Positions 31,581 through 59,167 of a stretch of 64,000 nt of DNA are shown here, in pieces. The number at the start of each line of letters is the position of its first letter. Position 1 is the first letter of the stretch. The notes under the pieces were generated by a model that had not been told where the DNA came from, did no database searches, and saw nothing but the letters and a program-made list of their open reading frames with translations. The position numbers and the translations under genes are program-made. This stretch comes from Rhodamnia argentea (Eukaryota; Streptophyta; Magnoliopsida; Myrtales; Myrtaceae), in assembly GCF_020921035.1 (NCBI RefSeq), contig NC_063158.1, positions 13,622,001 through 13,686,000 on the forward strand, written 5' to 3'.

Positions 31581-34500
31581 TTAACCCCGTGCAAAGAGTT
31601 TCTCTACGATCTTTTGCAGCTGATTTGCAACTCCGCCGATGCTCATCCGCCTTCCAGGCACTTCATCGGAGCAAACGACTCCAATATTGTATACTGTAAC
31701 CAAGCACTCTTGATATATGCCGTCGCTTTCGGAGAGCCAATGCTGAGGACCGCTGGGGCTTGAATGATTCTCTCTTTCTTGGAGCAGAATGCGATCTGTA
31801 ATTTCCAGTACTCGTTTGGGCAAAGCTTCTGCCACAAAGCTATGAAGAGTCAAATTGTCTCCGAAGGTGTCGTCAGTGGGACTCAACCCCGTGAACATCT
31901 CCAATAAGAGGATGCCGTAATCGTAGACGTCGCCTTCTCTTGACACCTTGCATCCCATCGTATATTCTGCCACAAATGTAGATCATAGTGCGGGTGAACT
32001 TTTGGAGTGCGGATCATTAAAGCAGAGTGTAATGGGCGTAAGAGTTATCATGCGGCTACAAAACTCACAAAAAGATCCATCAACATCTTTTACCTAAATA
32101 AACTTTCTTGCTTTGAAAGAGAGATTACCTGGTGGAGCATAACCGATTGTTCCTCCGATGCCCACCGAACTCGTCCGATTAGCCACGGTATCGGATGATG
32201 ATCCGAGGAGGAACTTTGCCAATCCAAAGTCACCAACATGGGCGACCATCTCAGCATCTAAGAGGATATTGCTCGGCTTTAGATCACAATGTATGATGGG
32301 GATGTGGCACCGGTGATGGAGATAGTCCAGTGCGGAGGCGACATCAATAGCAATGTTTATCCTTTGAAAGAAATTCAATGTCCGGGTAGGCTCATTCCTG
32401 TGAGATGGTGTTGGGTTTGAGTGTAACCACCTTTCGAGGCTTCCATTTTCCATGTACTCATAAACTAAGGCTTTAAAATCATTTTGTTGATGATCAATAC
32501 CCGAGCAAACCGTCAATATCTTTAGAAGATTTCGATGTTTCATGTTCTTTAATGCCTCGCACTCCGCCAGGAAGCTCTTCAGAGCACCTCGATGCACTAA
32601 ATGAAGCACCTTCACCGCAACGGTTGTACCATTCTCCTTAAGTATCCCCTTGTAAACAGAGCCAAAGTTTCCAATACCGATCAAATTCATTGAAGAAAAA
32701 TCATCGGTTGCTTTTAAGAGTGCACGATAAGATATGTTTGGACATGAATCATCCATGGAAGTTGAAATCGGTTCTTTTACTTTCTTCTTCAACCAACGAA
32801 GGTATAGAAAAACCAGAACAAGAGCTATTCCAAGAATGACAAAAGTAGCACAAGCCGACGATACCAATATATGGATTTTTCTTCTCTTGGAGCGTTTGGA
32901 GGTGCACTTGGGGAGGTGAAATGCTGGCAATCCCCCACAAAGCTCATCGTTCCCAATAATAGAAGTCGCGGTAGCATTCTTAAAGACTCCTCCACGTGGT
33001 ACCATGCCTTCAAAGCTATTGTAAGACAAATTCAAAAATTTCGGGGACCGAAATAATGCTAAAAATTCCGGAATCTGACCCGTCAAATTGTTGCATGAAA
33101 GATCTAGCTCTTCAATACCTCCTAACGATGTGATCGATTGAGGAATGGAACCACGGAAAAAGTTTCCCCCCATCCTCGGCGTGGTCAATCCAGTACAATC
33201 CCCTAAACTATTTGGGATTTCACCTACCAACTTGTTGTCGGAGATGTCTAACTCGGTCAGAGTCTTTAAGTTCCCTACTTCCATGGGCGGAACCCCACTC
33301 GGATGATTCCGAGACAAGTTCAAAACGATTGTTATCGAGGAGAGACCTATGAGCTGTGGGGGTATGGTACCGCCGAGATTATTATTAGAAAGATCAAGCG
33401 ACTGCAGAGATTGACACTTTGACAAATCTAAAGGAATTTTCCCATGAAAGTTGTTCCAACCGAGACTTAGTATGATCAACTTGGTTAGATTTCCCAAAGA
33501 AGTTGGGATCGTCCCTCCTAGGTTGTTATCGATTAACTGCAATACCACTAGATTTTGCAGATTCCCGAAATTTGAGGGGACCTCGCCCGAAAACTTGTTG
33601 ACATCCATTTGTAACCGGTTGAGGTTGACTAGACTTCCAATCTCTCCAGGAATCGCACCAAACATAAGGTTCTCACTCACGCCGAACCACTCGAGAGAGT
33701 GCGAGAAATTACCTATGCATTTGGGCAGTGCCCCGCCAAGTCTGTTCCCACCAATTCCGAAGGACTCTAGTCCGGTGGAGTTTGCCAATGAGCATACGAA
33801 GCTCAAGTCTTCGTAACTCCCACTTCCCAGCTGGTTATCAAAGATGGCAAAATGCCAAAGCCAAGGCATATTTCCGAAAGAAGGCACTTTCCCCGAAAGC
33901 TTGTTGTCTCCGGCTTGAATAACCTCTAGCTTTGTCCAATTGGACACCGAGGGAGGAATCGGTCCCCCAAATTGGTTCATGGCAATGCTGAAAAATTGAA
34001 GATTTGGGAGCGTCAAGCCTAAGTCTGCGGGAAGACTCCCTTGTATCCGGTTGCCTCCAACGTCGAACCGGGTCAGAGAGGAGAGATTGAGCAATGAAGA
34101 CGGAATTGTACCGGAGAATCTGTTTCCCGAGACAATGATACTATCTAAACTTGTCGGGCGGCCTAGATCTTCGGGAATGCTCCCGTCCAAGTTGTTTTCC
34201 GTGAGTTCAAGAACCTGCATTGAAGATAATTTCCCAAAGGAGGAAGGCACATTCCCAGAGAGTGCATTTTTATAGAAGGACAAAACTCGTAGCTTCGATA
34301 ATGAACCGAGTTACGTGGGAATTACTCCGATTAGTTGGCTGAATGCAATGTCGACGACTTGGAGCTTTGAGCAAGCCGACATGTTTCCGGGAATTTCGCC
34401 GGCCGGTGAATTGTTGTCTAGTTGTAGAAAACGCAGGCGGCGCAACCGCCCCACTTGCGGAGGGATTTCTCGAACGAGACTATTATTCGGGAGATCAATT

Positions 34501-34823
34501 ACACTCAAGAAGCTTAGGTTTCCGATGTGAGGAGAGATGGGCCCCGAGAGTCCTAGCGATTTCAAGTTCGGGACCGTAACCCTCTGGTGCCTCGGGCCGC
34601 ATGTGACACCGTGCCAATGGCAAAACCCGACAGTGTCATTCCACGAGGCAAGCGCCCCGTAATGGTCTTTGATTGCGGCCTTAAATGCGAGCAGCGCGAG
34701 TTTGTCGGTTTCATTTGTGGCGGAGGAGGCTTGGACAAAGCACCGTGCAAGAGCGAGAGACGAGAGAAGGAAACGGCATGCCGGTGCCGGATACCGCACA
34801 AAACCGAAGTGCCCAAGTTCCAT
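31581..34823 (-). pseudogene. LRR receptor-like kinase (XII type, At3g47570-like), copy 1, stop at codon 171
   Basis: Exon 1 34823-32129 and exon 2 31966-31581 join at PP|EYTMGC to give a 1027-codon frame, normal for LRR-XII kinases (EFR/FLS2/Xa21 relatives, immune-type surface receptors). It has a hydrophobic signal region (about residues 14-34), the LRRNT with NETDKLALLAFKAA and WHGVTC, about 20 LRRs, the cap cysteines CGGLPAFHLPKC, a transmembrane segment (ILVSSACATFVILGIALVLV) and a kinase. The kinase has GIGNFGSVYKG, VAVKVL, HCDLKPSN (non-RD) and DFGLAK. The only visible lesion is TAA at 34311-34313, codon 171, where the family reads E in PPELGSL. Either a pseudogene, or read through, or restarted downstream. 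Copy 2 (52561-55803) has the same stop. Confidence 0.88.
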
Positions 34824-35097
34824 AGCTCGAGCGGAAGTTGGTAGAAATGAAAGGAGGGAGGGAGCTTAAGACTTTAAGAGGAAACTGTGAAGGGCCTTTC
34901 TGGTTTTTCCTTTTTCCAATGTTGCAGACAAGCCAAAACAACAGCTAACCGAGTTGGTTTTCTCGTGCATCAAAGTTGCATTACTTTCTCGTCCGAACCG
35001 TCCCAAGCAAACGAATCTTGACTCGGGTCGCGATTGCAAAGTCGGTGAAGCCGGCCTACCCAATAATTCACCCTCATCTCTTTCCATCCCCATTGGA

Positions 35098-36185
35098 AGA
35101 GACTTTGGACAGGCTCTGTGCTGCATCCGGAGTCTCTGGATGACGGTGATGCATGTGCCTAATATTTTCTCTTAGGAAAAGTCTTGCTCGATCGCACACG
35201 GTACTAACCGTGTTATCAATTTTTTTTTTCACAATTTTTTTTCTTTTTCTTTTTTGTTATTTGCTAACCACAAGTTTGTGTGCATCCAGAGTCGCTGGAA
35301 GACGTTGATGCATGTGCCCAATATTTTCTCGTAGGAAAAGTCTTGCCTGACCGCACACGGTACTAAGGGAGTGCGTGATAACACTTATAGAAGTGGATTT
35401 CTGCTCTAGAAATACTTTTAAGGCAGAAATTCGTTTGGTAAAAATTTTTACTTTTGAAAAAAAATTTCACTTTTGAAGTTATTTTTTTCCTAACTTGAAA
35501 AGTTAAAAAAATATCTTTTCCAACTCAAAAAGTACTTATCGCCTCACTCTCTTTTCGATCATATCCACATCTACCAACCTCCGTGACCGTGGACCGTCGT
35601 CGATCGCCGCCCATCCCCGGCCTCCACCGGCCGCCGCCCACGACCACCGCCAACCGCCGATCATCGCTTGCCCACCGCCAACCTCTACCGATCGCCACTT
35701 GCCGACTGTCCTCGATAACCAACCACCGCTAACCTCCACCGGTTGCGGATCGTCGTCGGCCTTCGTCCATCGCCGACCTTCACCGGCCACAACCCACGAC
35801 CACCACCGACCATCGCCTGTCCCGGCCCACCGCAAACCTTCGCTGGCCGCCACCCATCGACCGTCCCAAATAGCCAACCACCGCCAACCTCCATCGGCTA
35901 TCGCCCATTGCCGCTTGCGACCGCCGACCACCGTCGCCACCAACCTCCAATCGCCGATCATTGCCCACCGCCAACCTTAGGAAAAGTCTTGCTCGCTTGT
36001 ACACGGTACTAGCCGTGTTAAGCTTGCCATCAATTTTTTTTCACGAAAACTCCCATTCTTTCCTGTAAATAGACCCGGTAGACCTGGTCACTCCCATTAT
36101 TTCCATCCACGTTGGAAAGGACTTTTGACAAGCCGGCTACGTATGCATCCAGAGTCACCGGATGATGTTGATGCATGCATGTATC
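35098..36185. repeat. Repeat module upstream of the receptor kinase
   Basis: A module containing ggaaaagtcttgctcg, cacacggtacta and a T-rich end recurs at about 35098-35262, 35277-35371 and 35976-36050, with a related part at 36105-36185. The same module lies upstream of kinase copy 2 (56080-56230) and again at 58410-58560. It probably belongs to the kinase 5' flank and has been copied with it. Confidence 0.75.
35373..35975. mobile_element. Inserted sequence with GC-rich degenerate minisatellite
   Basis: Present only in copy 1 of block B, between two copies of the taggaaaagtcttg module. The left part (gggagtgcgtgataacact...) looks like the end of a plant non-autonomous DNA element. The right part (35560-35970) is a degenerate tandem array of caccgccaacctccaccgg-like units that opens spurious Pro/Thr-rich or Trp/Gly-rich ORFs. 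No terminal repeats confirmed. Confidence 0.5.
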
Positions 36186-37649
36186 TCTATATCTACGTGC
36201 TGATAGGACAATCCAATGCCAGTTGTCATGATCCATAATTTATCAACGCTCGTATGATTTCGTGGAAACTCCTCTGTCCTCTATTTTGCACATTTCATTT
36301 TCCCTTTTCTCCATATTTTTTTTAGTTTTTGAATTTTGGAAATAACGCTGGTCCTATTTCATATTTCCTTAAAACTTTTTTAAGTCCGCCACGTGGAATG
36401 CCACATAGGATGCCACCGCAGCACTCCCCAACAGCTTCAAAGCCTCGGCGACGTTTTCGTTTAGATTTTAGCGGTACAAAACAACGAAAAATAAATAATT
36501 CAAGGACCAGATTAGTTGAAAGACGAATTCGGGGTTGTCGATGCACAAATTGAAGCCTTCGTATTAGCAAAATTGATATAAGTAGTAAGCCTCCAAAAGA
36601 GCAGTGCCGGAGAATTCGCACTTACGCCCTTAAAAAAATCCAATACACAGAAGTTACATTATTGAGATGTGGGACTGATTATACCGAGGCATATTTAAAC
36701 AACACCTGCTATGCGTATCGAGTGTCGACACATACCCTTTTAATTGCCACATGCCGGAAGGCTCGACTTGAAATCTATATATCCTTATTCACCCTGTTAA
36801 AATATGTCTCAAGTTTGAGTCTTTGAACGTGGTCGACTTTTGATCATGTACTGGAGTCGCCGATGCAATAAAAGGAAAAGGTAAAGTTCAAACTTGGGCT
36901 TGTTGACCGAATAAGTCTCCCACCCACGTGAAAGCTCGGTTTCATGTATGCTTTCCGTTAATTTAGGCGTCCTTTATATTAGGTATGCTCTCCCTTAATT
37001 TAGATATCCTTTATATTAGGTATGCTCTCTCTCTTTTTCCGGATAGAACCATAAATTCTAACATTGGGCAGGTGTTACTATACCATAATGCACACCCCCT
37101 GAAAATCGATTTGGTATTCTTTTCTTGAGATATTTTCTAAACACTAAGACAGATTGGGAGCCCACCAATCTGCCATCGGCTCTCATACCATTTGTTGAGA
37201 GCGCGCAGCAGAAGCTTCATCGGGAAAGATCGCCAAGAGAGAGCCCAAATTCGAGCATGTTTATATCAAGTTGGATCCACTTTCACTCAAAAACTTAAGC
37301 CAATGAATTATCAAACAACTTGAATATATTAATTACTCAACACCATACCATTTCTCCGACGTAAGATTTCTTTAACGTAACTCACATGTGTATCTTAACA
37401 CACGCACCATAGTAATAGTATTGCCCTTATCTGATCGAACTTATAGCTCTAGCATCAAAGAGCAGTCCCTTATATCCATTTATTTTGCTCTAGAATTAAG
37501 CGGTGGTAAGCCTCTATTCCAAGTGAAGCTGCAGAACCCAAGCTGTCCTTTGAATCTGACTCCCAACAACTAATAGATTGGAATTCGTCTTAAGGAGCAT
37601 CACACAAGTAAAATGACAAAAAGGCGCAAGGTAATTTGATTTGGATTTA
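36186..37649. other. Receptor-kinase upstream flank, non-coding
   Basis: Homologous to the matching part of block B copy 2 (about 56450-57850). Around 36960-37035 a short tandem repeat (ttaggtatgctctc) occurs. At 37183-37205, on the minus strand, aatggtatgagagcc resembles a copia primer-binding site, and a TGTTAG...-like terminus lies at 37062. Copy 2 lacks that part, so a gutted LTR element is possible but unproven. Confidence 0.4.
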
Positions 37650-37830
37650 TTTTAAAACACTATAACACCAAAACAGAGGGCTTAATAAATTGACAGTGCT
37701 CAAGAATGTGTGCGCATTGCGGGCCTCATGCTTAATTCGAAATATGTACAGAATCGGATGACAAATGATAATCAACTATCATCTTTAAACAAAGATCTTC
37801 AGTTATATATATATATTACATGTACATTTG
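37650..37830 (-). repeat. Relic of a receptor-kinase 3' end
   Basis: Contains gggcct..atgct.., aactatcatctttaaac and aaagatcttcagttat. This matches the region just downstream of both receptor kinases (31440-31545 and 52310-52420). No coding sequence remains next to it. An (GA)n microsatellite follows at about 37845-37866. Confidence 0.7.
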
Positions 37831-38083
37831 CCTTTGCGCAGTTAGAGAGAGAGAGAGAGAGAGAGTAATTTGGTGACAAGATGTGCTTTAACTAAAATTG
37901 GTGTGGAAATAACGTAACCCTTGTGGTTATTTACTAAAATAAGACATATGGTTTTAATTTTTTCATTAAAACATCTTATTGTTGTGAGTTTTGGACTGAC
38001 TCGTGCTTTTTGCACTCCCATTATGACTTTGATACTCCTTTTTGTATATGTTTTGACCATCTTATCATTTGAATGACAACGGG

Positions 38084-38273
38084 ATTGGCATCATAGATAA
38101 TAAACATGGGACATCATGGTTTTTGGAACAAGGAGTGGGAGGCGTGGAAAGGAAGAAGAAGGAGGATGAAAGTGGGGGTATGTAAGAGACAAAAAGAAAA
38201 AAGGAAACAAAAGAGTTGACATAATGATAAATAAAAAAATGAAGCATACAAATTTATAACAAAAGTGATGGGT
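38084..38273. repeat. Segment inverted relative to 59440-59630
   Basis: This stretch of about 190 bases matches the reverse complement of 59440-59630, while the sequence on its left (to atcttatcattt) is in direct orientation in both places. No long terminal inverted repeats were seen. Confidence 0.7.
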
Positions 38274-38475
38274 CACACAAGTAGTGTCAAAGCTGTATGA
38301 GGAGTGGATAAAGCACGAGTCTTTGGAAATTTAGTCAATTTTAGTAAATTCCGGTTTAATATTTGTGTTGATATTTATTCGGGTTTGTCAATTTTAGCAC
38401 GCACCAACTCATTAATAAGAATCTATCCATTAACTACTAATCAAATTCAGTCCCACGATATCGGATACTAACCAA

Positions 38476-39402
38476 GATGACTGAAAAGTAGCATTAGATC
38501 CTAAGTTCTAAACTTGATACTTACTAGACTTTATGGCAACTTGTCTCGGTATTTATTGATAAGTGCCTTGAGCACAAATGGCAATCAGAAGATTCAGAGC
38601 ACAATACTTATTGATACGACGGAAAAAGTTGGGAGAAGTGAAATTGGAGCATGCGCTCGAATGACTGGAATTTAGAGATAACCAAACAGATAAAATTCCA
38701 CGGCTGTTCATAGTGATTGTAATGTATTGGTCATAGACAATTCGATGAGAAATGAATACCGATAAAGAATTGTACATGCCCATCTCGCTATGCATATTTA
38801 TGCACCTCAAGGACTATGTATATAACATCATGTCCGATACAAAAACTTCTCATGTCCAGCATAGATGAGTAATACCATGTAAATCTTCCTAAGCGAGCTC
38901 AACGTCAATTGACACGGCAAATGCACACATGAACATCGCAACATAACGCACGGGGCCAGCATTTGACATATGAAAAGCACACGTAAACAACAAGCACCAC
39001 AACATTCTTATATGTCTAACTTTGTTCGCATTTCAATCAACTGTATACGGGGAATGCAATAAGACACAGCCAATGCAACTTCAATTGCACATCGGAATGT
39101 TTGTGAACGAATGCAATAGGAATTAACTATCCATGATTCGGGCATTCATTCCGTCGAACATGTAGAATGCCCCCGAGTTAAAAAAACTAATATGCCAAAT
39201 TCAAGCGCTATTCACTTCAATCATTACTATAATCTAGGAAGGATGGAAACTCTCCGGGAACCTTTGTGTTGGTGCTCGACAAGCATCTGACACGTGGTCA
39301 ACACTCCCGACACATCAGCAACACGCGAGTCCGGAATTCCGGCACGCTATTCCAACACGCACGGGTCAATTTTAAAAATTTTCAATATTTTAGGGGTCAA
39401 AA
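38476..39402. other. Intergenic, nothing recognised
   Basis: Begins where homology to block B copy 2 stops. No gene, RNA or repeat identified. Confidence 0.4.
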
Positions 39403-39417
39403 TGTAATCTATCAAAC

Positions 39418-39593
39418 TCCCAACGCGTTTCTCGGACTTAAGTGGGGGGCCCTTGCTGGTGGGCTGCGGGGCTAGCCTCCCTCCGGGTATAGTCGTCGTC
39501 GGAAAGGGTCTTCGCCACCCTTCGGGTGGTGGTGAGTTGACCCGATTACGACGGGCGGATCCTGGATTACCAAAAAAAAAAAAAAAAAAAAAT
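39418..39593 (+). mobile_element. SINE with poly(A) tail
   Basis: An element of about 155 bases with a GC-rich 3' domain (gccacccttcgggtggtggt, ggatcctggattacc) followed by about 20 A. It is flanked by the target duplication tgtaatctatcaaac at 39403-39417 and tgtaatctatcaaaac at 39594-39609. Full structure and flanks support retrotransposition. Confidence 0.85.
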
Positions 39594-39897
39594 TGTAATC
39601 TATCAAAACCTAATATTCTAAGTTCCTCCACCCTAATCGGCTCGGTCCTAATTGTCGAAACCGTAATCGCCGTCTCTCACCCTCTCGTCTCTCGGTCTCT
39701 CTCACCCTCTTGGCTCTCGCACAGTGTCCCTAATCACCTTGCATTATCTACCCCGTTGATTGTTTTTTTTTTTTTTTGACTTATTGTTAAATATTAAATT
39801 TAATTGTGGAATGTGGATTACTTTTTTTTTTTTTTGGGGTCAAAAGACGAGTACTTTTGTTCAGTTAACAAAGTTTGAGAAACAACCAGAACTAACA

Positions 39898-41672
39898 TCA
39901 AAACATAACATATCCCGAAGGGTGGAGGGTGGGCAAAGACAACCAATTAGAAGAGAGGTAACCTAATCTATGAGCCTCAGCTAACCAATCCGCACAAGAG
40001 CTAGCTTCACGAGGAGAGAAAACAATATGGACTTCCTTTAGCTGGCCCAACATCTCTATACAATATGCGGGTTTTTTTTCCAATTTAATTTTTTTTTAAA
40101 AATATTTACGAAATTATTTTTTTAAAAAAAGTATTTACAAGTTTGGGCCTCGCTCGGCGGTTGGGCTGCCGAGCGGGGTTGGGCTTTTTTTTTTTTAATT
40201 TCATATTTTTAAGTGTTTTAATTATTTATACTTATAATATTTAGTTTATTTCGTATTTTTTTAACATGTTTATATTTATTTTATTGATAGTTTTTTTCTT
40301 GTGAAGCTTATCTTTATAACATAATTAGTAATAATTAATATAAAAATTATTAAGATCTATAATTAATAAATAATGTTGTAATTATGTAATTAATTACAAA
40401 TATTAAAAAAAAATTGGTAAGATATATGAAATTAAGGAACCCCCTTCTTAATTCAATATCTTTATAACATAATCAATTGAAAACCCATCTAGACGATCCC
40501 GAATCGCAAAAATTACCATTAATAAATCCTGAAAATACTAAAAAAAATAGGAAAACCCATCTAGACCCCGAATCGCAAAAATCCATCGTTCATCACCGCC
40601 AACGGCCGTGAATATTGATTAGGACGCCATTTCGCTTCCGCCGATCAAATTTGAGCCCGATCCGATATCGTCGACTTGATCCGCCGGTTCTTAACACATC
40701 ACTGTTTCGCCTTCCGATTGGATTTCCGTCTGTCCAATCGATCTAGAAACGCACTACTAATACATTCTGCATCACTCTGGAAAAACTATAAAAGCCGATA
40801 AAATTTGTCATTTATGAAATGTAGGGAAAAGGGTAAAAGAAGGGTTTTTTTTTTCCAATTTAATTTAAAAAAATATTTACGAAATGACATCTAGATCCTC
40901 GTCCTCCTTAATTTCATATATCTTACCAATTTTATTTTATGAATATTTTCAATTAATTACATAATTACAACATTATTTATGAATTATAGATCTTAATAAT
41001 TTTTTATATTAATTATTACTAATTATGTTATAAAGAGAAGCTTCGTAAGAAAAAAATTATAAATAAAATAAATATAAACATGTTAAAAAAATACGAAATA
41101 AACTAAATATTATAAGTATAAATAATTAAAACACTTAAAAAAATGAAATAAAAAAAAAGCCCAGCTCTGCTCGGCGGTTGGGCTGCCGAGCGGGCCTCGC
41201 TCGGCAACCCAACTACAGAGCGAGGCCCAAACTTGTAAATACTTTTTTTTAAAAAATAATTTCGTAATTATTTTTTAAAAAAAATTAAATTGGAAAAAAA
41301 CCCACAATCTGCAAGTAAGTTCGAAATGGGCCATGGGCCAAGGGCCGGATGGGCTTGATCTGCCAATAACTCCACGAGTGATGAGTTGTCGCTGAATATA
41401 TCCCACTGCAGATCAAAAGACCCCACGTGCAGATCACTTGAAGACTTCGACTTCGACTTCGACTTCGACTTCCATGGGAGAGAAAACGCCGTCAGTTGAA
41501 GTCTAGCTTGCAGCCCCTGCTGCTTCAGAGCTATAGTTTCCGCCGTGAGGGGGCAATCGGCACGGATTGTCTTCGTAATGCCGTCAATTAACGTGCCTTG
41601 GCTACCTCTCACTACTCCGGCTATTGAGGCTTCTGATATGCTCTCTGCCCATGACGCATCGACGTGAATCTT
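39898..41672 (-). pseudogene. RNase H-like domain ORF, split by a transposon
   Basis: The minus strand encodes an RNase H-type fold (RVT_3-like, as at the 3' end of plant LINE-type elements and derived genes). Segments are KIHVDASWAESISEASIAGV, RGSQGTLIDGITKTIRAD, LTAETIAL, NSSLVELLADQAHP, then after the inserted element LKEVHIVFSPREASSCADWL and AEAHRLGYL. Candidate acidic residues are D (HVDASW), E (AETIAL), D (SDNSS) and D (CADWL). The frame is broken by the 1235-base MULE (40069-41303), and a stop with one extra base precedes the K at 41672. A gacttc hexamer repeat (41443-41472) expands the middle. A related relic is at 49868-50206. Confidence 0.75.
40069..41303. mobile_element. Mutator-like MITE with about 370-400 bp terminal inverted repeats
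   Basis: The arms 40069-40438 and 40905-41303 are near-perfect reverse complements starting gggttttttttccaattt. The target duplication is 9 bp with one mismatch (acaatatgc 40060-40068, acaatctgc 41304-41312), which is the Mutator size. Each arm holds a GC-rich island (ctcggcggttgggctgccgag) in AT-rich DNA. The spacer has a direct repeat (gaaaacccatctagac, about 40474 and 40552) and no transposase ORF. A transcript across it would form a long hairpin. Confidence 0.9.
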
Positions 41673-42792: not shown

Positions 42793-43336
42793 TGGGAAAA
42801 TTTCAAATAAGGGCACTTCGTGCCTTCAGTTTTCTCAAATGAGGGCCTCAATGAAATGCCCCCTTTGTTTTAAAGAATGACCCATTTTCATCATTTGCTC
42901 TGTTTATTATTTTTATTTTTTTGTTGTTGCGGCCGACAAGGCCGTCCCTCGCGGCCATCCATGGGTGGCCTCGCCCGGGTAGCATGATGCCGCCCTCGTA
43001 GCGGCCTCGCTTCGACAGCTATTGAGGGCGGCCTCGCCTTAACAGCCACGGGCGAGGGTGGGTCCTCGTTGATTGCGAAGAGGTGTCTTGTGAAGTGAAG
43101 AGGTATCAAAATCAAAGTCGATCATAGTTGCGAAGAAGAAGAATATGATGTGATGATCTGGTGAGGGCTTGCCTGCTGCGGTGAGGCGACCCTTGCCAAG
43201 ATCCGGCAATGGCCGGCCTTGCCCGGTCCTCGCCGATGGCTGGCCATCGCTTGAGACTCTTATTTGGAAATAATGCCAAGTTCTGGTCCTCATTTGAGAA
43301 AATAATAGCACTTTAGGTCCTTATTAGAAATTTCTC
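42793..43336. mobile_element. MULE-like non-autonomous element, relative of 4585-5300
   Basis: The left end gggaaaatttcaaataaggg and the right end (reverse complement gagaaatttctaataaggac) form terminal inverted repeats of the same type as the element near 4.6 kb. The GC-rich middle (ggccgacaaggccg...) has no believable ORF. No target duplication established. Confidence 0.6.
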
Positions 43337-44539: not shown

Positions 44540-44547
44540 GTAAGATC

Positions 44548-45093
44548 TTTTATTCCCATTGTTCATAATTTTTTACGAGAAATAGTAAATTTTTTTTTTA
44601 CCTTTACTGTTTGCAAATATTATGAGTCGATCATTTCTGTTGCTATTCGTAAATTTTGTTACGTAAAGTGTCTTTGGGTCTGTATTCCTTGAACATCCCA
44701 TAAAACTCAGGTAACAGTAAGAGTAGATGCTGCGGGTGCGGGAGCAATAGCGCATTCCAAAGCAAGATAACACGCAGAGTCTCCAGATTTCGAGCGCGAC
44801 GGCCATCGCAGCCTGGCCAACAGTGGACTGGACCCCTGCAAATTGGCGGAGATTCAGACTCCAGAGTGCCACGGTCGCGAAGAAGACGAGGAGGGAGTGT
44901 CCCTTTCACGTTCCAGTTTTCGCGATACGGTATCGCTTGATTAAATCGCTTCTCGAGCGTGTTGAAATGGCGAAATTCTGGTGATGGGTGGCCGTAGATA
45001 GCCGAGCATGCGACTACTGGTTAACGTGGTTGCAGATTCCAGAAGAACCCACAAGGGAATTGATTGGTTTTGCCATCGGAGATCCCATTGATC
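44548..45093. other. Upstream region and probable 5' UTR of the PPR gene
   Basis: GC content rises from about 44700 and reaches the PPR start without a break. No separate gene recognised. Confidence 0.4.
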
Positions 45094-46665
45094 ATGAGCT
45101 GCTCGATGAAATTACTGACCCAGAATCAGTTCGCTAGAATTCCACACCAGCGCTTCTTGTCCCGACTTTTCTGTACTACCGTTCCATTGGGAAGGGATAA
45201 CGAGATCGACAAAATCGCCAAAATCGCCAAAGTCATAAACGACCACCCATTTTCTGATAGCACGCTTCAAACCGTCCTTCAGAAGCACATCCCGCCGCAT
45301 ACTCTTTCCGCCGGTTTCGTAGAGGACGTGGTTGGCCATTTATTTGGGGCTCATTCCAATGGTCTCAAAGCTCTAGAGTTCTTCAGATACACTGTCCGCC
45401 ATTTGTCGTGTGGTCCGACTTCGGTGGCGTTCGAAAGAACTCTCCACATACTTGCGAGGATGCGGTACTTTGAGAAAGCTTGGGAATTGATGGAAGAGAT
45501 GCGGGTAATGCACCCTTCGGTGCTCACGCTGAAGGCGATGAGCATCATGATGTTGAAGACTGCAAAATTCAAGTCGTATGAGGATACTCTCCTGGCATTT
45601 GAAAGAATGGAGAATGATGTGTTTGTTGGAAGGAAGTTTGGTACGGATGAATTCAATATACTTCTTCGGGCATTTTGCACGCATAGGCAGATGAAGGAAG
45701 CACGATCCGTGTTCAATAAGATGCATTCACGATTCTCTCCTGATACGAAGACCATGAATATACTGCTCTTGGGATTTAAAGATTCAGGCGATGTCACCTC
45801 AATGGAGTTGTTTTACCATGAGATGGTTAGAAGAGGTTTTAAACCTAACACAGTGACATATAACATCAGGATTGATGCTTACTGTAAGAATGGTAAGAGA
45901 GGTTGTGTGGGTGATGGTCTAAGGCTTCTTGAAGAAATGGAAGGGGCCGGTTGCTTACCTACTGTTGAGACATTTACTACTTTGATTCATGGTGCGGGGG
46001 TTGCTCGCAATCTAACAAAGGGAAAGGAATTGTTTGATGGGATTTTTAGAAAAAATATGCAACCAGATACAGCAGCCTATAATGCGATGATCAGTGTTCT
46101 GATAAAAGCAAAATATGTAAAAGCTGCCATTGCCTTGATGGATGAGATGGAGGCGAAGCAAATTAGGCATGACAACATGACCTATCATACATTGTTCTTT
46201 GGATTGATGAGATCAAGAGAAATAGACAGAGTATATGAGTTATATCATAGAATGGTGGAGAGAAACTTTGTGCCTAAAACTTGGACGGTGGTCATGCTGA
46301 TGAAGTACTTTTGTATTAATCGTCAAGTTGATATGGGATTGCATTTATGGGAATACCTGGTGGGCAAAGGGCATTGTCCTCATGGTCATGCACTGGATCT
46401 TTTGGTGATTGGATTGTGTTCTTGTGGAAGAGAACTAGAAGCTTTTGAGTGCTCCAAACAGATGCTGGAGAGAGGAAGGCTAATGACTGAAGCAACATTT
46501 CGGATGTTAGGGGGGCTACTGCTGCAGGCTGGTGAGGCCGACAAGTTGAGGAAGCTCAATCAACTGGTAAAGACGTTAAAAGCTATTCTGCCTCTGTCAA
46601 AAGGGCATGCTGATGGTATAGCTAATTCCTTAGAATTTAATGCAGAAAGGACTTTTTCAAGTTGA
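45094..46665 (+). CDS. Pentatricopeptide repeat protein, At3g61360-like
   Basis: An intronless P-class PPR gene of 523 codons, the organisation usual for plant PPRs, whose products bind organelle RNA. The ATG at 45094 precedes a basic, serine- and phenylalanine-rich leader (SCSMKLLTQNQFARIP, RFLSRLFC) suited to mitochondrial import. Conserved segments shared with At3g61360 are AHSNGLKALEFF, FERTLHILARMRYFEKAW, DEFNILLRAFCT, MNILLLGFKDSGDV, GFKPNTVTYNIRIDAYCK, LIHGAGVARN, AYNAMISVLIKA and CPHGHALDLL. Roughly nine to ten 35-residue helix-pair repeats can be seen from residue about 110 to 450. No E or DYW extension follows, so an editing role is unlikely. The frame to the left of 45094 lacks an ATG. 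No lesion seen. Confidence 0.95.
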   Translation: MSCSMKLLTQNQFARIPHQRFLSRLFCTTVPLGRDNEIDKIAKIAKVINDHPFSDSTLQTVLQKHIPPHTLSAGFVEDVVGHLFGAHSNGLKALEFFRYTVRHLSCGPTSVAFERTLHILARMRYFEKAWELMEEMRVMHPSVLTLKAMSIMMLKTAKFKSYEDTLLAFERMENDVFVGRKFGTDEFNILLRAFCTHRQMKEARSVFNKMHSRFSPDTKTMNILLLGFKDSGDVTSMELFYHEMVRRGFKPNTVTYNIRIDAYCKNGKRGCVGDGLRLLEEMEGAGCLPTVETFTTLIHGAGVARNLTKGKELFDGIFRKNMQPDTAAYNAMISVLIKAKYVKAAIALMDEMEAKQIRHDNMTYHTLFFGLMRSREIDRVYELYHRMVERNFVPKTWTVVMLMKYFCINRQVDMGLHLWEYLVGKGHCPHGHALDLLVIGLCSCGRELEAFECSKQMLERGRLMTEATFRMLGGLLLQAGEADKLRKLNQLVKTLKAILPLSKGHADGIANSLEFNAERTFSS

Positions 46666-48299
46666 CTTTGTTTGAGTACAACCTCTGTTTACTGGATATT
46701 TGGACGGTTTGTCATTTTTGGTTCTCCTCAAAGTCTATAGGGCTGATACACATGCGCTGAGAAACTCTGTTCGTTTGTGTTCACCGTGCGGTGTTGACTC
46801 AAGTTATTGCTGAGACTTGGGCCATGTCTATGCAACCTAGCTTCTGCAGGTGGTTGAAACAAATCCCGGAGGGAGGAAGCAATATGAGAGGCACAGCGTT
46901 TTCCTCGTGTGGTTGCTTTTGCCTTTTGTGGGTTGGTCAAAACAGAAAATTGAGATTGAGGACTTGACAAGATGGCACAGTTTTACTCTCATTTGACTTG
47001 CAAAAAGGAAATGCTGCTGCTCAAATTTCTGTGAGGATTTGCACGTAAGCGCTATGCCTAAAGTGGAATGAGATTAGTTGATTGGCTTGTACAAAGATGG
47101 CTCTTAAAGCCTGCATTTGATTTTTTTTGCTGCGCGGTAGCTGTTCAGTTTGATCAAAGCAATGAAAATATTGTATCCGCATATGGATGGGTAGGGCATT
47201 CTTATTCTTTCCTGACGAAATGTTAAAAGAAGTTACGAGCTGTTCTGTCTTCATCGAAAGGTTTGTATGCTCGTGCTACCATGTAGATAATTGCTCAACA
47301 GTGAGTTGTTTGCCTTATGGTCACAGATTAAGGATGTTCACAAACTGTCTTTATTTATTGCAACTTCACTATTGTACTCAGAAAAGCTCCAGCTTCTTCT
47401 TGTACACTCAAATGGAGGAGTTCTTCCTCTGAGAAAGAACCTTGCCACCCTGCAGTTATGACTTGGTCAAAACAGATTCGGCTGTGACAAAGGATATGAC
47501 AAAACTAGAACTGTAAGCTAAGTACCGGAGTATCATATTTTAAACCCTGAAGCTCAGTTCTGCTTTTTGGAGGAGTTGTACTAATTGATTGTCATATATG
47601 AAATATGTTTAACCAACTCTAATGTTCTGTGAACTTCTATATGGGTTGATTGGACCCTATTACCAGTCAAAAGTAAATGTTACCATGCGCAGGCGACCAC
47701 AGGTGCTCTAAGGAAAATGTTGGTAGAGTGTCTCGGAACAATTGTTTAAACTTATTAAATATTTTTTTATATTGCAACTCTGATGTTCGGTACAATTAGT
47801 TCCTTAAAATGTGTACTTTTTCGGTATCCAACATGATTTGATGAGCATCTTTTCTGTTTTGAAGCTTTTAACTGGTGCTGTTAAGGTAATTGTTAACAAT
47901 ACCCTCTTGGAATGTATCAGGGGTTGTGCTCTCAGTGACCAAAAGACAAGATTTTAATCAACCCATGAAAGGTACTACTAGCTTGCTGGACCTCTTATTG
48001 CTCCAGCAGTATCTGTTGAATTTCAGGTGTCATAATTTGCTCTTTGGCAGTTGTCTCCTTAGTATGATTATGACCAGAATACTAAAGTTAATAACTACTG
48101 CTAGAGTAATAGCAATGGATCTTTTAGAGCAGCCTCCTTCCACCTTCACTCCTCCTACTTAAACGTCTGTCCTCTCTCATTTTCACTAATAAAAAAAAAA
48201 TGGTTAGATTAGTCACAGCTTCAAAAATCGATGCCCGATTTCTGTTGCCAGAAAATAAGCACTTCTCCTATCCAAAAGGAAAAAAGAGGAGAAAAAGAA
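46666..48299. other. Intergenic, 3' flank of the PPR gene
   Basis: Includes the PPR 3' UTR. Short ORFs only (up to about 90 codons), none with a domain I recognise. Confidence 0.45.
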
Positions 48300-49800
48300 T
48301 CACTTATTTCTTGGACAGAAGACTACAGTGTTGCCTACTGATAGGAATGGAAGATTTGCGTCTTCCATTGCTAGTTCAAATCTGGTTTTTGTATCTGACT
48401 GCTTCTGTTTCTTGCATACCCTGGAGCTGCCCGGGGTCTGCAATCTTTTCGGCTTCACTAGATAATGCTTTCTCAACAAAGTTATGGAGGTCAAAACCTT
48501 CGAATCAGTGGGCCTCTTCCTGGCGAAAATCTCTTGCAAGATGATGCCGTAACCGTAGATATATCATATAACCATGTCCAGTCTCTTGGCTTCCCACTCC
48601 ATACTATGGAAACAAGTGAAAAACAGGAAAGGGGAAAACAGGACCTATGCAAATATAGAAGCACACTGTGCTATGAATTATGCGAATGCTCTGCGCTGCA
48701 CTCAAATGTAATTGATGAGCTACCTTGCTTTATGCGGGTGTATGTGTTTATCTCGACATATCTTACTAATCATTTCATCTTCTCCTTAAGTAGATGCATG
48801 TCTGTCATCCATGTCCCTAGAACAATTCCTAGAGATCATTCTTTCACCCTTGTCAATCCACCGCATTTTGATTGCATTATAGCCCCTGGGAAAGATCAGA
48901 TTCAGTCATGCAGCTCCACTTCACGACCTAAGATTTCAATTACTGGCCAATATGATGCCGAAGACACAAGCTTCATTTGAAGACCCCTGAAGAATGGTAC
49001 CCTGAATGTACTTGTCAAGATTTAACATATCAATTCTAGGAATTGTTCGAGGAAGCATAGTGAATCGGCATGCAAAAGCTGCGGTTGAGGTAGGATTCTC
49101 ATTCTTTTGACCTGTTTACTTTCGATTTTACTACAAGAGGGAAGCAAAAAGACTTGGAGGAGAAAGCACATAGAATTCAACTGGAGCAACATATTAAAGC
49201 CACTTACCCTAACAGAACTCTACAAATTTGCAAAGACTTGGCTGTTTGCCGCTGGAACTGATCTCGCCAATTCATCACCAATATGTGCAATAATATCGTC
49301 ATCGAGGATTGTTACCAAGCTTGAGATCGCAGTGAACTATAGGCTTCTCGCTATGGTGATGGAGATACGGTGAAGCATAAGCAACATTGATACCAATGCT
49401 TAGCCTTTAAAAGGCTCGAGTTGCTTGGCTCGTCACGTCCCTCGTTCTCTCCAGGAGTTAGATGTAGGCAATCCTCCAGGTTTCCATTGACCATAAATTC
49501 GTAGACTAGGGCCTTAAAATTGTCCACATCATTTAGCAATTCCTGAACAAGATGTCATGACCTTCACAAGATTACAATGTCTGATGTTTCTCAATGCCTC
49601 GCACTCATGCCATGAAAAAGCTTCGCCAAGACACCGATGAAAGAGATTTCTTGGAAGAGGTCGAAGCCGGATCGTGTCTATTATTCGCAACCCGCCAGAT
49701 TGAAAGAATCAACAACACCGTTAATCCTAACACTGATGACGCAATGGGTTCAACCGTTTTTGAAGTCTGGTTCTATTTTCTCCTCTTCGGAACCACTAGG
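48300..49800 (-). pseudogene. Degenerate LRR receptor kinase (kinase part)
   Basis: On the minus strand, from high to low coordinates: a membrane-spanning segment (VLGLTVLLILSIW, near 49720), then CEALRNIRHCNLVKVMT, NFKALVYEFMVNGNLEDCL, PYLHHHSEKPIVHCDLK, DDDIIAHIGDELARS, and YGYGIILQEIFARKRPTDS. These are kinase subdomains IV to XI of an LRR-XII kinase. The frame shifts at least four times (after the CSG motif, after LLKA, after HCDLK, and after RPTDS). The glycine-rich loop and catalytic lysine are missing. It is a dead relative of the two larger kinases here, not a direct copy. Confidence 0.8.
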
Positions 49801-49867
49801 ATGCATTGAGGAAGACGAAACTCGGGTTCTCCATGGCATAACTTCCCATTTCCAACTATGGCTGGCG

Positions 49868-49975
49868 GTGATGCTTAGCCGTGCGAGAGGTACTTCGTCT
49901 CTTGCAAACTGGAATTGAACTGTGATGCTTAGCCGTGCGAGAGGTACTTCGTCTCTTGCAAACTGGAATTGAACT
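49868..49975 (+). repeat. Perfect 54-bp tandem duplication
   Basis: The unit gtgatgcttagccgtgcgag... (54 bases) occurs twice without a mismatch, at 49868-49921 and 49922-49975. A multiple of three, so frame is kept across it. Confidence 0.95.
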
Positions 49976-50206
49976 GGGAGAACGAACTGATCTGTGCACA
50001 GTGCTTGAGTGCGATAGCTTATCACTTGTTGAGAGAGCATCTTGGACGTTTCTCTAAGCCCATGGGCCAAGCGCGCAATCATAGAAGAATGCAAGGAGCG
50101 TCTGGCTCAATTGAAGTTCGTAAAGATTGTCCATTGCCCACGTGAGTCCAATCAAGCTGCCGACTGGATTGCCAAAGCCCACCGCCGAAACATCTTGCAC
50201 CTCTAG
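49868..50206 (+). pseudogene. RNase H-like domain relic
   Basis: The plus strand reads VREVLRLLQTGIELGERTDL, TVLECDSLSLVERASWT and, after a frameshift, ERLAQLKFVKIVHCPRESNQ followed by AADWIAKAHRRNILHL and a TAG at 50204. These are the central and C-terminal elements of the same RNase H-like family as the ORF at 39898-41672. The N-terminal part is too decayed to delimit (traces near 49800). Broken by at least one frameshift and by the 54-bp duplication at its left end. Confidence 0.7.
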
Positions 50207-50375
50207 TTGGTTAACTTTACCATCTCAGCCTCTTTGGGATATTTTGTGTTCAGAAACTCATATGTTATGTTCATGGGGCTCCAAGTTGGACAACGATGGT
50301 CGACTAGCTCAGCTAGTTCGCGACGGAGCTTGCGGAGACACACAGCAGTAAGTTCAGGGGTTTATCACGGCTGAA

Positions 50376-51635
50376 CGACGACACGACTCATAGTGGGGAT
50401 TTCAATCTACGATGAATAGCAGCTCGTGGTTCGGTGATGGCTCGGCAACTCTCGAATTCACGGGCCGACCTACAAAACAAAAGCACGGGTGACGTCGATG
50501 GAGGGTGGTGAGTGATCTGGCTGCAACCGACGACATCGGATGGAGCTGCAGATTGCAACGACAGTGATTTCTGGCGCAGCAGATGGACCGGCGAGGGTCT
50601 CTGTCTATTCGCGGTCCACTGTCGTCGCGACGCAATGGCTAGCAGGGCTTGGTAGGGATGGAGACTCGACCTGTCGGGTGGTCGGGCAGCCACTGGTGGC
50701 TGTCGGCTTTGGTACGAGCGAGGCAGCCGGAGAGAGACGGTGTCTACTCGAGGAGGAGGCGACAGACCTCGTCATGGGCGAAGGCAGTGTAGCATTAGGT
50801 GAGGCACGGTAGCGGCTGAAGGGCCCGATAGCAATGGACGTCGTCAGTGTCGGGGATTCGATGACTGCTGGTCAGGGGCAGCAAAGGCTGCGCGAGGTGA
50901 TAGCGGACCGGGGGCGGCCACCGGGGATTCTCGACTGTGCTCTTCCTCTGTCTAATTCTCACGTGTATTTTCTGAGACTGAATTTCCGACCTAGAGTTTT
51001 TGCTAGGTTCAATTTTTGTCTATCTATGGAATAATCCCCCAAATTTTGGGTCTTTGCAATTTGATCATCAGGGACGAAATTTTGATCAATTAGACCCTCA
51101 CGTGGCGGGCCCGCCGATTGAATCGGCTTGGCTGACCTGTGGCTTCTTTCGCAGCTTGTCTGCTTCTTCTGTGCTTAATTGAGTTCTTTTTTCTTACTAA
51201 TTAAGCTTTAACCGAAGGCCCTTTTCCCCTAATTAAAGTTTAACGGGCTGAATCAAGCTCCAGTTAGGCCCTAATAGCCTTATGAATTTCGACACACACC
51301 CCCCTTGCAGGCTGAATTTTGCCTTGGTTCACACGTCGATTTCGAATCCATTTTCGCCACCGGTCCGATTAAAATGCAAGAACACATGCATGGATAAATT
51401 AAACTAAACTATATGAAAAATGATTTAAATATTTTTGCTAGGGACTATAGTTAGTCCCTAATTTTTTATGCAATAAATGACTAAATGAATTGCTAAAACT
51501 TGGGTGTCAACATTTAGGAACATAGGGCAATTCCTAACATCCTAGTATTTCGCGCAACAATTCAGCCACAGATAGCCTTCCCTAGTCAAACTGCACAAAC
51601 CTAGCTTTCCTTTTGAATCAAATTTCCTGTAGCTA
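50376..51635. other. Insert specific to block B copy 2, unclassified
   Basis: GC-rich to about 50960, then AT-rich with text such as tttgggtctttgcaatttgatc, which is common in LTR-retroelement flanks. I found no primer-binding site, paired LTRs or coding domain. The ORFs here (for example 50540-50812) are not recognisable. Confidence 0.35.
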
Positions 51636-52174
51636 AGGGTTTGTTTGGTAATTCTTTTGTTCCCGAAATAGAAAAAGAATATAAACCCATTTGTGTACGT
51701 GTTGATAGAGGAAAAGCAAGTCGCGACGCTGCGTTAATTGACTTTTTGTTCTCGGGAACAAAAACAGGAAGTAAAAGAAAGTAATTTCTTTATTATCGAG
51801 AACAAAAAGCGAAACAAAGTCATTTTATAAAAACAAGCTCAGTATAACTTAATACTCATATTTACAACCACGAGTCCACTGCCGGTCATTGTAGGTCATC
51901 AATTGCCATTGCCGTCGACGGCCGCCGCCGCCGCCGTTGACGGTCCTTATCGACTCCACTTGCTTTTTTATAATTAAATATAAAAAGTTAAGAATATAAA
52001 TTTTTTGGTTCATACCAAACAAATTTATATTCCTTTTATATTTCGGAAATAGAAACTTTGTGCAATTATTAAACGCGTTCTTCTATTTAGAAGTTGCCCT
52101 CAGAACAGAATAAAAAAAATATCATTCCTACTCAGAAATTATTCTCGGAACTAAAATGTTACCACACGTGTCCT
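51636..52174. mobile_element. MITE-like element
   Basis: The ends agggtttgtttggtaa (left) and, reversed, aggacacgtgtggtaa (right) form imperfect terminal repeats. Internal text alternates tttgttcccg and cgggaacaaa. The right half is also seen in block B copy 1 (31190-31282). A short GCC-repeat lies at about 51918-51940. Confidence 0.55.
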
Positions 52175-52560
52175 AATTGATAGCAATTCGTACTAGAAAC
52201 CATAAAAAGAAGAAGCAGCAGCAGCATGGCAATTTATTTCGAATTCATTTTATTATACTACAGCACCAAAACAAAGTTTTAGTAAACTTACAGTACTCAA
52301 TAATGTGCGTGCACATTACGGGCCTTGTGCCAGCTTAAAACATTTACACATACGGATGGTGAAAGACAACAACTATCATCTTGAAGGAAAGATCTTCAGT
52401 TATGTATTTTACCTGCAAGTTTCTTTTTCTTTGGTCATAATTTTACTCGCACGTTTGCGTTTGCATAAGCAATACTGAATGTATAGCGACAGGAGAAGAG
52501 ACAAGTTCTAACAAAATTTATGCTATAGAGTAGAGACCTGTTGTTTCATTGTCGTCCGAG

Positions 52561-55500
52561 TTAACCCCGTGCAAAGAGTTTCTCTCTGATCTTTCGCGGC
52601 TGATTTGCAGCTCCGCTGATGCTCATCCGCCTTCCGGGCACTTCATCGGAGCAAACGACTCCAATATTGTATACTGTAACCAAGCACTCTTGAAATATGC
52701 CGTCGCTTTCGGAGAGCCAATGCTGAGGACCGTTGGGGCTTGAATGATTCTCTCTTTCTTGGAGCGGAATGCGATCCGTAATTTCCAGCACTCGTTCGTG
52801 CAAAGCTTCTGCCACAAAGCTATGAAGAGTCAAATTGTCTCCGAAGGTGTCATCGGTGGGACTCAACCCCGTGAACATCTCCAATAAGAAGATGCCGTAT
52901 CTGTAGACGTCGCCTTCTCTTGACACCTTGCATCCCATCATATATTCTGCCACAAATGTAGATTATAGTGCAGGTGAACTTTTGGAGTGCGGATCATTAA
53001 AGCAGAGTGTAATGGGCGTTAGAGTTATAATGTGGCTACAAAACTCACAAAAAGACCCATCAACATCTTTTACCTAAATAAACTTTCTTGCTTTGAAAGA
53101 GAGATTACCTGGTGGAGCAAAACCGATTGTTCCTCCGATGCCCACCGAGCTCGTCCGATTAGCCACGGTATCTGAGGATGATCCAAGGAGGAACTTTGCC
53201 AATCCAAAGTCACCAACATGGGCGACCATCTCAGCATCTAAGAGGATATTGCTCGGCTTTAGATCACAATGTACGATGGGGATGTGGCACTGGTGATGAA
53301 GATAATCCGGTGCAGAGGCGACATCAATAGCAATGTTTATCCTTTGAAAGAAATTCAATGTCCGGGTAGGCTCATTCCTATGAGATGGTGTTGGGTTTGG
53401 GTGTAACCACCTTTCGAGGCTTCCATTTTCCATGTACTCATAAACTAAGGCCTTAAAATCATTTTGCCGATGATCAATACCCGAGCAAACTGTCAATATC
53501 TTTAGAAGATTTCGATGTCTCACGTTCCTTAATGCCTCGCACTCCGCCAGGAAGCTCTTCAGAGCACCACGATGCACTAAATGAAGCACCTTCACCGCAA
53601 CGGTTGTACCATTCTCCTTAAGCATCCCCTTGTAAACAGAGCCAAAGTTTCCAACACCGATCAAATTCATTGAAGAAAAATCATCGGTTGCTTTTAAGAG
53701 TGCTCGATAAGATATGTTTGGACATGAGTCGTCCATGGAAGTTGAAATCGGTTCTTTTACTTTCTTCTTCAACCAACGAAGATATAGAAAAACCAGAACA
53801 AGAGCTATTCCAAGAATGACAAAAGTAGCACAAGCCGACGATACCAATACATGGATTTTTCTTCTCTTGGAGCGTTTGGAGATGCACTTGGGGAGGTGAA
53901 ATGTTGGCAATCCCCCACAAAGCTCATCGTTCCCAATAATAGAAGTTGCGGTAGCATTCTTAAAGACTCCTTCAAGCGGTAGCATGCCTTCAAAGCTATT
54001 GTAAGACAAATTCAAAAGTTTCGGGGACCGAAATAATGCTAAAAATTCCGGGATCCGACCTGTCAAATTGTTGCGTGAAAGATCTAGTTCTTCAATACCT
54101 CCTAACGATTTGATCGATTGCGGAATGGACCCACGGAAAAAATTTCCCCCCATCCTCGGCGTGGTCAATCCAGTACAATCCCCTAAACTATTTGGGATTT
54201 CACCTACCAACATGTTGTCGGAGATGTCTAACTCGGTCAGAGTCTTCAAGTTCCCTACTTCCATGGGTAGAACCCCACTCGGATGGTTCCAAGACAAGGC
54301 CAAAACGATTGTTATCGAGGAAAGACCTATGAGCTGTGGGGGTATGGTACCGCTGAGATTATTATTAGAAAGATCAAGCCACTGCAGAGATTGACACTTT
54401 GATAGATGTGAAGGAATTTCCCCATGAAAGTTGTTCCAAGCGAGACCTAGTGTGATCAACTTGGTTAGATTTCCTAAAGAAGTTGGGATCGTCCCTCCCA
54501 GGTTGTTATCCGTTAACAGCAATGCCCCTAAATTTTGTAGATTCCCGAAATTTGAGGGGACCTCGCTTGAAAACTTGTTGGCATACATATTTAAATGGTC
54601 CAGGTTGACTAGACTTCCAATCTCTCCAGGAATCTCACCAAACATAAGGTTCTCATTCACATAGAACCACTTGAGAGCGTGCGAGAAATTACCTATGCAT
54701 TTGGGCAATGCCCCGCCGAGTCTGTTTCGATTAATTCCGAAGAACCGTAAATCGGTGGAGTTTGTCAATGAGCATACGAAGCTCAAGTCTTCAGCATTCC
54801 CACTTCCCAGCTGGTTATCAAAGATGGCAAAATACCAAAGCCAAGGCATATTTCCGAAAGAAGGCACTTTCCCCGAAAGCTTGTTCGCTCCGGATTGAAT
54901 AACCTCTAGCTTTGTCCAATTGGACACCGAGGGAGGAATCGGTCCCTCAAGTTGGTTCTTGGCAATGCTGAAAATTTGAAGATTTGGGAGCGTCAAGCCT
55001 AAGCCGGCAGGAAGACTCCCTTGTATCGGGCTGTCTAAAGCGCCGAACTGGATCAGAGAGGAGAGATTGAGCAATGAAGGCGGAATTGTACCGGAGAATC
55101 TGTTTCCCAAGACAGTGATAGTATGTAAACTTGTCGGGCGGCCAAGATCTTCGGGAATGCTCCCGCCCAAGTTATTTTCCGTGAGTTGAAGAACCCGCAG
55201 TGAAGATAAGTTCCCAAAGGAGGAAGGCACATTCCCGGAGAGCGCATTTTTATAAAAGGACAAAAATCGTAGCTTCGATAATGAACCGAGTTACGTGGGA
55301 ATTGCTCCGGTTAGTTGGTTGAATGGAATGCCGACGACTTCGAGCTTTGAGCAAGCCGACATGTTTCTGGGAATTTCGTTGGCCGGTGAATTGTTGCCTA
55401 GCCGTAGGAAACGCGGGCGGCGCAACCGCCCCACTTGCGGAGGGATTTCTCGAACGAGACTATTATTCCGGAGATGAATTTCACTCAAGAAGCTTAGGTT

Positions 55501-55803
55501 TCCGATGTGAGGAGAGATGGGCCCCGAGAGTCCTAGCGATGTCAAGTTCGGGACCGTGACCCTCCGGTGTCTCGGGCCGCATGTGACACCGTGCCAATGG
55601 CAAAACCCGATGGTGTCATTCCACGAGGCAAGCGCCCCGTAAGGGTCTTTGGCTGCGGCCTTAAATGCGAGCAGCGCGAGTTTGTCGGTTTCATTTGTGG
55701 CGGAGGAGGCTTGGACAAAGCACGGTGCAAGAGCAAGAGACGAGAGAAGGAAGCGGCAAGCCGGTGCCGGATCTTGCGCAAAACCGAAGTGCCCAAGTTC
55801 CAT
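52561..55803 (-). pseudogene. LRR receptor-like kinase (XII type), copy 2, same stop at codon 171
   Basis: Exon 1 55803-53109 (2695 bases) and exon 2 52946-52561 (386 bases), exactly the lengths of copy 1, again 1027 codons. Domain order is the same: signal region, LRRNT, about 20 LRRs, paired cysteines, transmembrane helix, non-RD kinase with GVGNFGSVYKG, VAVKVL, HCDLKPSN and DFGLAK. A TAA at 55291-55293 (codon 171) is shared with copy 1. The two differ by many substitutions (for example SALDYLHH against SAPDYLHH, VYDYGI against VYRYGI) but by no indel and no other stop. Substitution P for L before DYLHH is unusual in this helix. Function is uncertain for the same reasons as copy 1. Confidence 0.88.
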
Positions 55804-58729: not shown

Positions 58730-58969
58730 ACACCCACCGTAGTAACAATATTGCCCGTATCCGACTAAACTTATAGCTCCAGGATCAGAGAGCAGTCCCC
58801 GATATCCATTTATTTTGCTCTAGAATTAAGCGGTGGTAAGCCACTATTCCTAGTCAAGCTGCAGAATCCAAGCTGTCCTCCGAATCTGATTCCCGACGAC
58901 TAGTTGATTGGAATTCGTCTTAAGGAGCATCATACAAGTAAAATGACAAAAAGGAGCAAGGTAATTTGA

Positions 58970-59150: not shown

Positions 59151-59167
59151 TACATTTGCCTTTGTGC

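Follow-up and report, generated by a model that had tools for sequence, protein, structure and literature searches.

Two receptor kinase genes and their tandem array

The window, meaning the whole stretch of 64,000 bases that was analysed (C9:13622001-13686000), contains two receptor kinase genes on the minus strand, c1 at 31581-34823 (exon 1 34823-32129, intron 32128-31967, exon 2 31966-31581) and c2 at 52561-55803 (exon 1 55803-53109, intron 53108-52947, exon 2 52946-52561). The exons are 2695 and 386 nt long in both genes, and the two gene bodies, 3243 bases each including the intron, align without gaps and with 204 differences. In each gene the only in-frame stops are at codon 171 and at codon 1027, the natural end. 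Direct reading of the frame places the premature TAA at 34311-34313 in c1 and at 55291-55293 in c2. A sequence-only reading of this DNA had reported a TAA at codon 171 of both copies, with no other premature stop and no indel across the 1027 codons; re-reading both frames confirmed this, and its coordinates and exon lengths were correct. The TAA is genuine in both copies as far as the assembly goes.

A Pfam scan of c1 and c2, run on pieces divided at the codon 171 stop, matched LRRNT_2 upstream of the stop, and LRR_1 or LRR_8 together with Pkinase downstream of it, above the Pfam cut-off. The LRRs occupy 22 registers as set here, and are accompanied by one membrane stretch (by eye) and a protein kinase domain that contains one intron and shows HCD in its catalytic loop (by eye); LRRNT, LRRs, membrane stretch and kinase are together the composition of plant LRR receptor kinases. 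The best solved-structure match of the open frame after the stop is the FLS2 ectodomain, and for the exon 1 portion of the kinase a match to BRI1 ranks above FLS2. By these matches c1 and c2 resemble pattern-recognition LRR receptor kinases, and their FLS2-related family is putatively LRR subfamily XII, which also includes Xa21, EFR and the At3g47570-like genes. The domain features, the HCD motif and the single kinase intron included, are shared with FLS2-related receptor kinases; unlike those, the array to which c1 and c2 belong has premature stops in seven of ten copies, and it has proline at several LRR core positions at which four outgroup paralogues have leucine. Codons 85, 140, 223, 508, 549, and 594 are proline (CCG) in both c1 and c2 and leucine in all four of these paralogues; all but one of them fall on LRR core positions, and their state differs among the array copies.

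The tandem array runs from 13.6536 to 13.8070 Mb of C9 and comprises ten minus-strand copies, named c1 to c10. No additional copy was found in the 50 kb to the left of the window, nor in the final 30 kb fetched on the right, which contain a distant kinase relic. A genome-wide search with exon 1 (346.7 Mb, 74 contigs) gave at least 44 matches, a lower bound since 40 of 109 candidates were scored. The 11 matches with 92% identity or more correspond to c1-c10, with c6 in two pieces, and the remaining 33 matches listed have 66-81% identity. Lesions are found in most copies. There is a stop at codon 330 in c3 (by eye, with a local frame shift), one extra inserted base and a stop at codon 475 in c4, a stop at codon 374 in c5, one at codon 266 in c7, and two, at codons 583 and 1003, in c10; the natural stop is lost in c3 and c10. 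Copy c6 (C9 13744907-13747869) has an in-frame deletion of 279 bases that removes codons 128-221, almost four LRRs, and is otherwise open. Only c8 and c9 have a full open coding frame, although the intron of c9 has, some six bases from its 5' end, a 2-base gap that could affect splicing; copies c7-c9 lie at C9 13757359-13796870. The array therefore consists of seven copies with a premature stop, one with a large deletion, and two with an open frame. A 3-base deletion at codon 21 is common to c7 and c8, and may be a second variant that has moved between copies.

Two further repeats accompany the genes in the window. A block upstream of c1 (36221-38471) is repeated in pieces upstream of c2 (56467-59440), and two aligned pieces of it diverge by 13.6% and 15.5%. 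Another block, at 26386-30412, recurs at 59744-64000, where it is cut by the window end, and two of its aligned pieces diverge by 3.5% and 4.9%. A broken kinase relic on the minus strand (49199-49874) is about 30% identical to the receptors over the kinase part, and similar relics occur elsewhere inside and beside the array. On the plus strand, 45064-46665 is an open frame of 533 codons with PPR repeats (PPR_2, E 1.3e-50). Searches of viral and prokaryote collections returned 3 and 29 pattern-matching stretches, respectively, and no confirmed relatives.

The base composition of the genes is unusual in one respect. CTG/CAG is depleted in c1 and c2 (observed/expected about 0.5) and CCG/CGG is enriched. 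In 2-kb windows over positions 1-64000 the log ratio of CTG to CCG has a standard deviation of 1.33; that of CTA:CCA, CTC:CCC, and CTT:CCT is 0.29-0.44, and that of ATG:ACG, GTG:GCG, and TTG:TCG is 0.84-0.90. The depletion of CTG/CAG is seen in all ten array copies and is weaker in the four outgroup paralogues. Either base calling affected by methylation or a biased mutation process may lie behind it. Passages of PMC9749173 consulted on a base-calling artefact make no mention of CHG, and the evidence that the C[C/T]G imbalance is an artefact is weak.

Relationships and exchange among the copies

The nearest relative of c2 is c6, from which it differs by 2.6% in the coding sequence and by 3.5-3.9% in the flanks. 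All other pairs of copies have coding distances between 5.9% and 8.0%. For c1 and c2 the coding distance is 6.4% and the near flanks differ by 10.6% and 11.4%; for c2 and c5 the near flanks differ by 1.6% and 3.3% and the coding part by 7.0%. With the c2-c6 pair left out, coding distances have a standard deviation of 0.005, and their correlation with flank distances is -0.03 for the 5' flank and 0.11 for the 3' flank, where flank distances have standard deviations of 0.037 and 0.061, respectively. Individual flank distances can depend on the alignment, as for the 5' flanks of c1 and c4, which gave 0.072, 0.078, or 0.206, and 0.026 over the nearest 250 bases. The coding parts of the array are uncoupled from their flanks.

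The unrooted tree of the gene body is close to a star, with c1 beside c4 and with c2 and c6 together (support 100) and joined by c9 (support 56). The first 1000 bases instead group c2 with c4 (support 94), and none of five trees groups c1 with c2. In PHI tests on 197 informative sites of nine copies (c6 left out), none of 1000 permutations reached the observed value at any of four settings, and pairwise incompatibility rises from 0.26 for sites 1-10 bases apart to 0.48 at 51-100 bases and 0.56-0.58 beyond. Linkage is thus gone within about 100 bases, and therefore the gene tree says little about the history of any single site. The array shows the pattern of interlocus gene conversion, namely a short shared tract amid conflicting groupings, and near sites that are more compatible than far ones. 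Silent differences between c1 and c2 are not clustered (variance/mean 0.74-0.96, P 0.45-0.76), so this pair by itself lends tracts no support, and the signal appears only when all copies are compared. In Arabidopsis, tracts left by non-crossover conversion have a mean length of about 25-50 bp (PMC3865688), so a tract of some 37 bases would not be unusual.

Selection and the open frame

Over the whole coding sequence the dN/dS between c1 and c2 is 0.88, which is not different from 1 (2dlnL 0.64), and after codon 171 it is 0.81 (2dlnL against 1 of 1.37). The sequence-only reading had named a dN/dS near 1 after codon 171, combined with the lack of a transcript, as refuting its inference. Numerically the value is indeed near 1, but it misleads, for it averages about 4.9 at exposed LRR codons with 0.27-0.94 elsewhere; because opposite signals are averaged, whole-pair dN/dS was set aside as uninformative about function. 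At the exposed codons of the xxLxLxx motif, 49 of 110 differ in amino acid and 2 differ silently, and among 176 scaffold codons there are 12 amino acid differences and 16 silent ones. When each codon class is given its own omega under one shared silent clock, the values are 4.9 for exposed LRR sites (2dlnL against 1 of 50.6), 0.64 for scaffold codons (4.3), 0.75 for other LRR codons (3.7), 0.27 for the membrane and juxtamembrane region (14.2), and 0.62 for the kinase (8.0); that of the first 81 codons (0.94) is indistinguishable from 1. "Exposed" here denotes a position in the LRR consensus, and the register was set on that consensus after the differences had been seen. These pairwise omegas also assume that recombination is absent; it is present, and they are to be read as a property of the pool of variants.

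The exposed-site signal is found on both sides of the stop, with amino acid changes at 9 of 20 exposed codons before it and at 40 of 90 after it. Omega at exposed sites is 4.2 before the stop and 4.9 after it once 20 codons showing C[C/T]G or C[A/G]G differences are removed. From this presence on both sides we infer that most of these differences probably date from receptors whose sequence beyond codon 171 was translated. Under free drift, the part beyond codon 171 would be expected to acquire some 4.8 additional stops and some 8 indels, and neither kind of lesion was observed. This expectation uses a neutral divergence of 0.0675 per site and an indel rate from the repeated block at 26386-30412 of 7 per 150 differences (0.047); the alternative rate of 0.060 was pooled by hand from slightly overlapping pieces. 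With 0 of about 13 expected events, no more than about a quarter of the divergence can have built up under free drift, provided that lesions were not removed by conversion. The earlier judgment is upheld on this point: simple neutral decay after the stop is a poor fit.

Changes private to single copies and outside exposed positions were also compared. Their N:S ratio is 95:51 over the seven copies with a premature stop, against 19:23 in c8 and c9 together (Fisher P 0.03); c6 (6:6) is not part of this contrast, which was selected once the lesions had been seen. The difference is as expected if the stop-bearing copies are now relaxed. However, by copy the ratio is 3:6 in c2, 12:18 in c8, and 7:5 in c9, so that the private changes of c2 show no relaxation and the low ratio of the open copies comes from c8 more than from c9. 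Lineage-specific expansions of LRR receptor kinases have been associated with positive selection or relaxed constraint (PMC4049390).

Origin of the shared stop

Codon 171 is TAA in c1 and c2, GAA in c3, c4, c5, c7, c9, and c10, AAA in c8, and deleted in c6, and it is GAG in all four outgroup paralogues fetched. The earlier proposal that the stop predates the duplication finds no support in these states, as the other eight copies have GAA (six), AAA (one), or no codon (one), and c2 is nearest to c6. Around the stop, c1 and c2 are identical over 37 bases (34287-34323 in c1 and 55267-55303 in c2, minus strand), that is, from -10 to +26 relative to the first base of TAA. The same run in c9 differs only by a G at the stop position. 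This run ranks 23rd among 205 runs of identity between c1 and c2, and runs of at least its length contain 40% of all identical sites; a long conversion tract around the stop was rejected, the run being of ordinary length. Recent gene conversion, which had been listed among possible reasons for the preserved frame, is favored in the form of a short tract but finds no support as a recent conversion of the whole gene.

At informative sites near the stop the partners of c1 change from site to site. Copy c1 agrees with c3, c4, and c10 at -17 and with c3, c4, c5, and c7 at -11; at -1 it has G with c2, c9, and c10, where c3, c4, c5, c7, and c8 have A, and at position 0 it agrees with c2 alone; it then sides with c3, c5, and c7 at +27 and with c4 and c7 at +38. 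Copy c2 equals c9 at all informative sites from -17 to +38 except position 0, and further out it sides with c4 at -33 and -26 (with c7 also at -26); the likeness of c2 to c9 is confined to the neighborhood of the stop. There is no copy that matches c1 both before and after the stop. Copies c1 and c2 also agree at -42, where c9 has the same base, and at -39, where c10 does; both positions lie among sites at which c1 and c2 differ, which may point to an older or patchy sharing. For the stop itself the conversion tract rests on two bases, -1 and 0, and base -1 belongs to the C[A/G]G class, which is possibly recurrent here. A two-base change from AG to GT, considered when only c1-c6 were known, was dropped since c9 and c10 carry the intermediate.

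The reading that we favor, with a probability of about 0.68 on the sequences compared, is that the shared stop reflects short-tract ectopic conversion within the ten-copy array, the TAA having arisen in c2 and been passed to c1. Ectopic gene conversion would move short tracts between the coding parts of the array; the TAA at codon 171 would have come from a G-to-T change on a c9-like background, the present c2; and a tract of at most about 37 bases, provided that it was unbroken, would have brought the stop and base -1 into c1, a recipient whose immediate surroundings are of the c3/c4 type. Variants that now distinguish c1 from c2 would mostly have been shaped in working receptors, with strong diversification of the exposed face, constraint on membrane part and kinase, and an open frame. 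The stop would have come late and is most likely young, and c1 and c2 are now probably pseudogenes, like five other copies of the array.

Descent of the stop from a common ancestor of c1, c2, and c6, with linked markers mostly erased by later exchange, is unlikely, even though the gene body does not reject the corresponding groupings in AU tests that left out 100 bases around the stop (P 0.20 for a c1+c2+c6 clade and 0.11 for c1+c2 in the first 1500 bases). The agreement at -42 and -39 would fit such descent, as would the deletion in c6, which conceals whether that copy once had the stop. Against it, the flanks reject c1+c2+c6 (AU 3e-63 for the 5' flank and 1e-5 for the 3' flank), c1 joins c2 in none of the trees, and working copies would have had to supply, by conversion, the exposed-site diversification and the open frame seen downstream of codon 171. 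We consider an independent, identical G-to-T change in c1 and in c2 very unlikely: some coincidence among seven single-base nonsense changes has a chance of 0.093, but this particular transversion has a weight of 0.0019 of the nonsense target, its repetition by one of six others has a chance of about 1.2%, and c1 shares base -1 as well, against its nearest surroundings.

It is no more probable that a systematic sequencing or assembly error produced the TAA twice in a common context. The identical 37 bases in c1 and c2 would provide such a context, and the CTG/CAG depletion and CCG/CGG excess in the receptor genes could be a methylation-linked base-calling effect; yet the stop is a G/T difference outside the C[C/T]G class, c9 reads G there with otherwise the same bases from -10 to +26, outgroup CTG corresponds to array CCG at 4 of 17 conserved sites (6 of 37 for ATG to ACG and 5 of 24 for ATA to ACA), and C.G sites retain some short-range linkage. 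Least probable among these alternatives is a stop that is tolerated, in which readthrough, splicing out, or a downstream start would give a working receptor under continuing selection. Exposed-site diversification and the open frame are equally strong after codon 171 and before it, as this would predict, but the array explains both without a tolerated stop, and the sequences gave no sign of readthrough, splicing, or a downstream start. Splicing out was rejected in a check by hand, as all in-frame acceptors listed, up to 700 bases from the GTAACT at the stop, break the LRR period, and by eye no stretch resembling a signal peptide was seen at the downstream methionines. An extension of the short-tract conversion reading, which we put forward tentatively, treats the array as one shuffled pool: tracts passing among all ten copies would keep dead copies open and diverse, dead copies would serve the open ones as a reservoir of receptor faces, and null alleles would circulate likewise.

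The locus is a case of birth and death of receptors accompanied by gene conversion. Paralogues can share a premature stop without that stop giving the age of their duplication, and a dN/dS near 1 can mask strong selection, here 0.88 overall against about 4.9 at exposed LRR sites. With seven stop-bearing and two open copies, the array offers a small system in which the spread of receptor variants and of null alleles by conversion could be measured. It belongs with known receptor clusters that combine exchange with truncated members. The rice Xa21 cluster likewise consists of receptor kinases with truncated members and exchange between copies; one of its truncated members is due to a transposon, whereas single-base nonsense changes dominate in the present array. 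Tandem pseudogenes under interlocus gene conversion can have a lesion common to copies that are not nearest relatives, within a short tract, as is found here for c1 and c2, but unlike in those pseudogenes the entire coding body, and not the lesion alone, is unlinked from the flanks. Notable in this array are the degree to which coding sequence and flanks have become independent and the fact that a null allele appears to have moved by the same route as the receptor variants.
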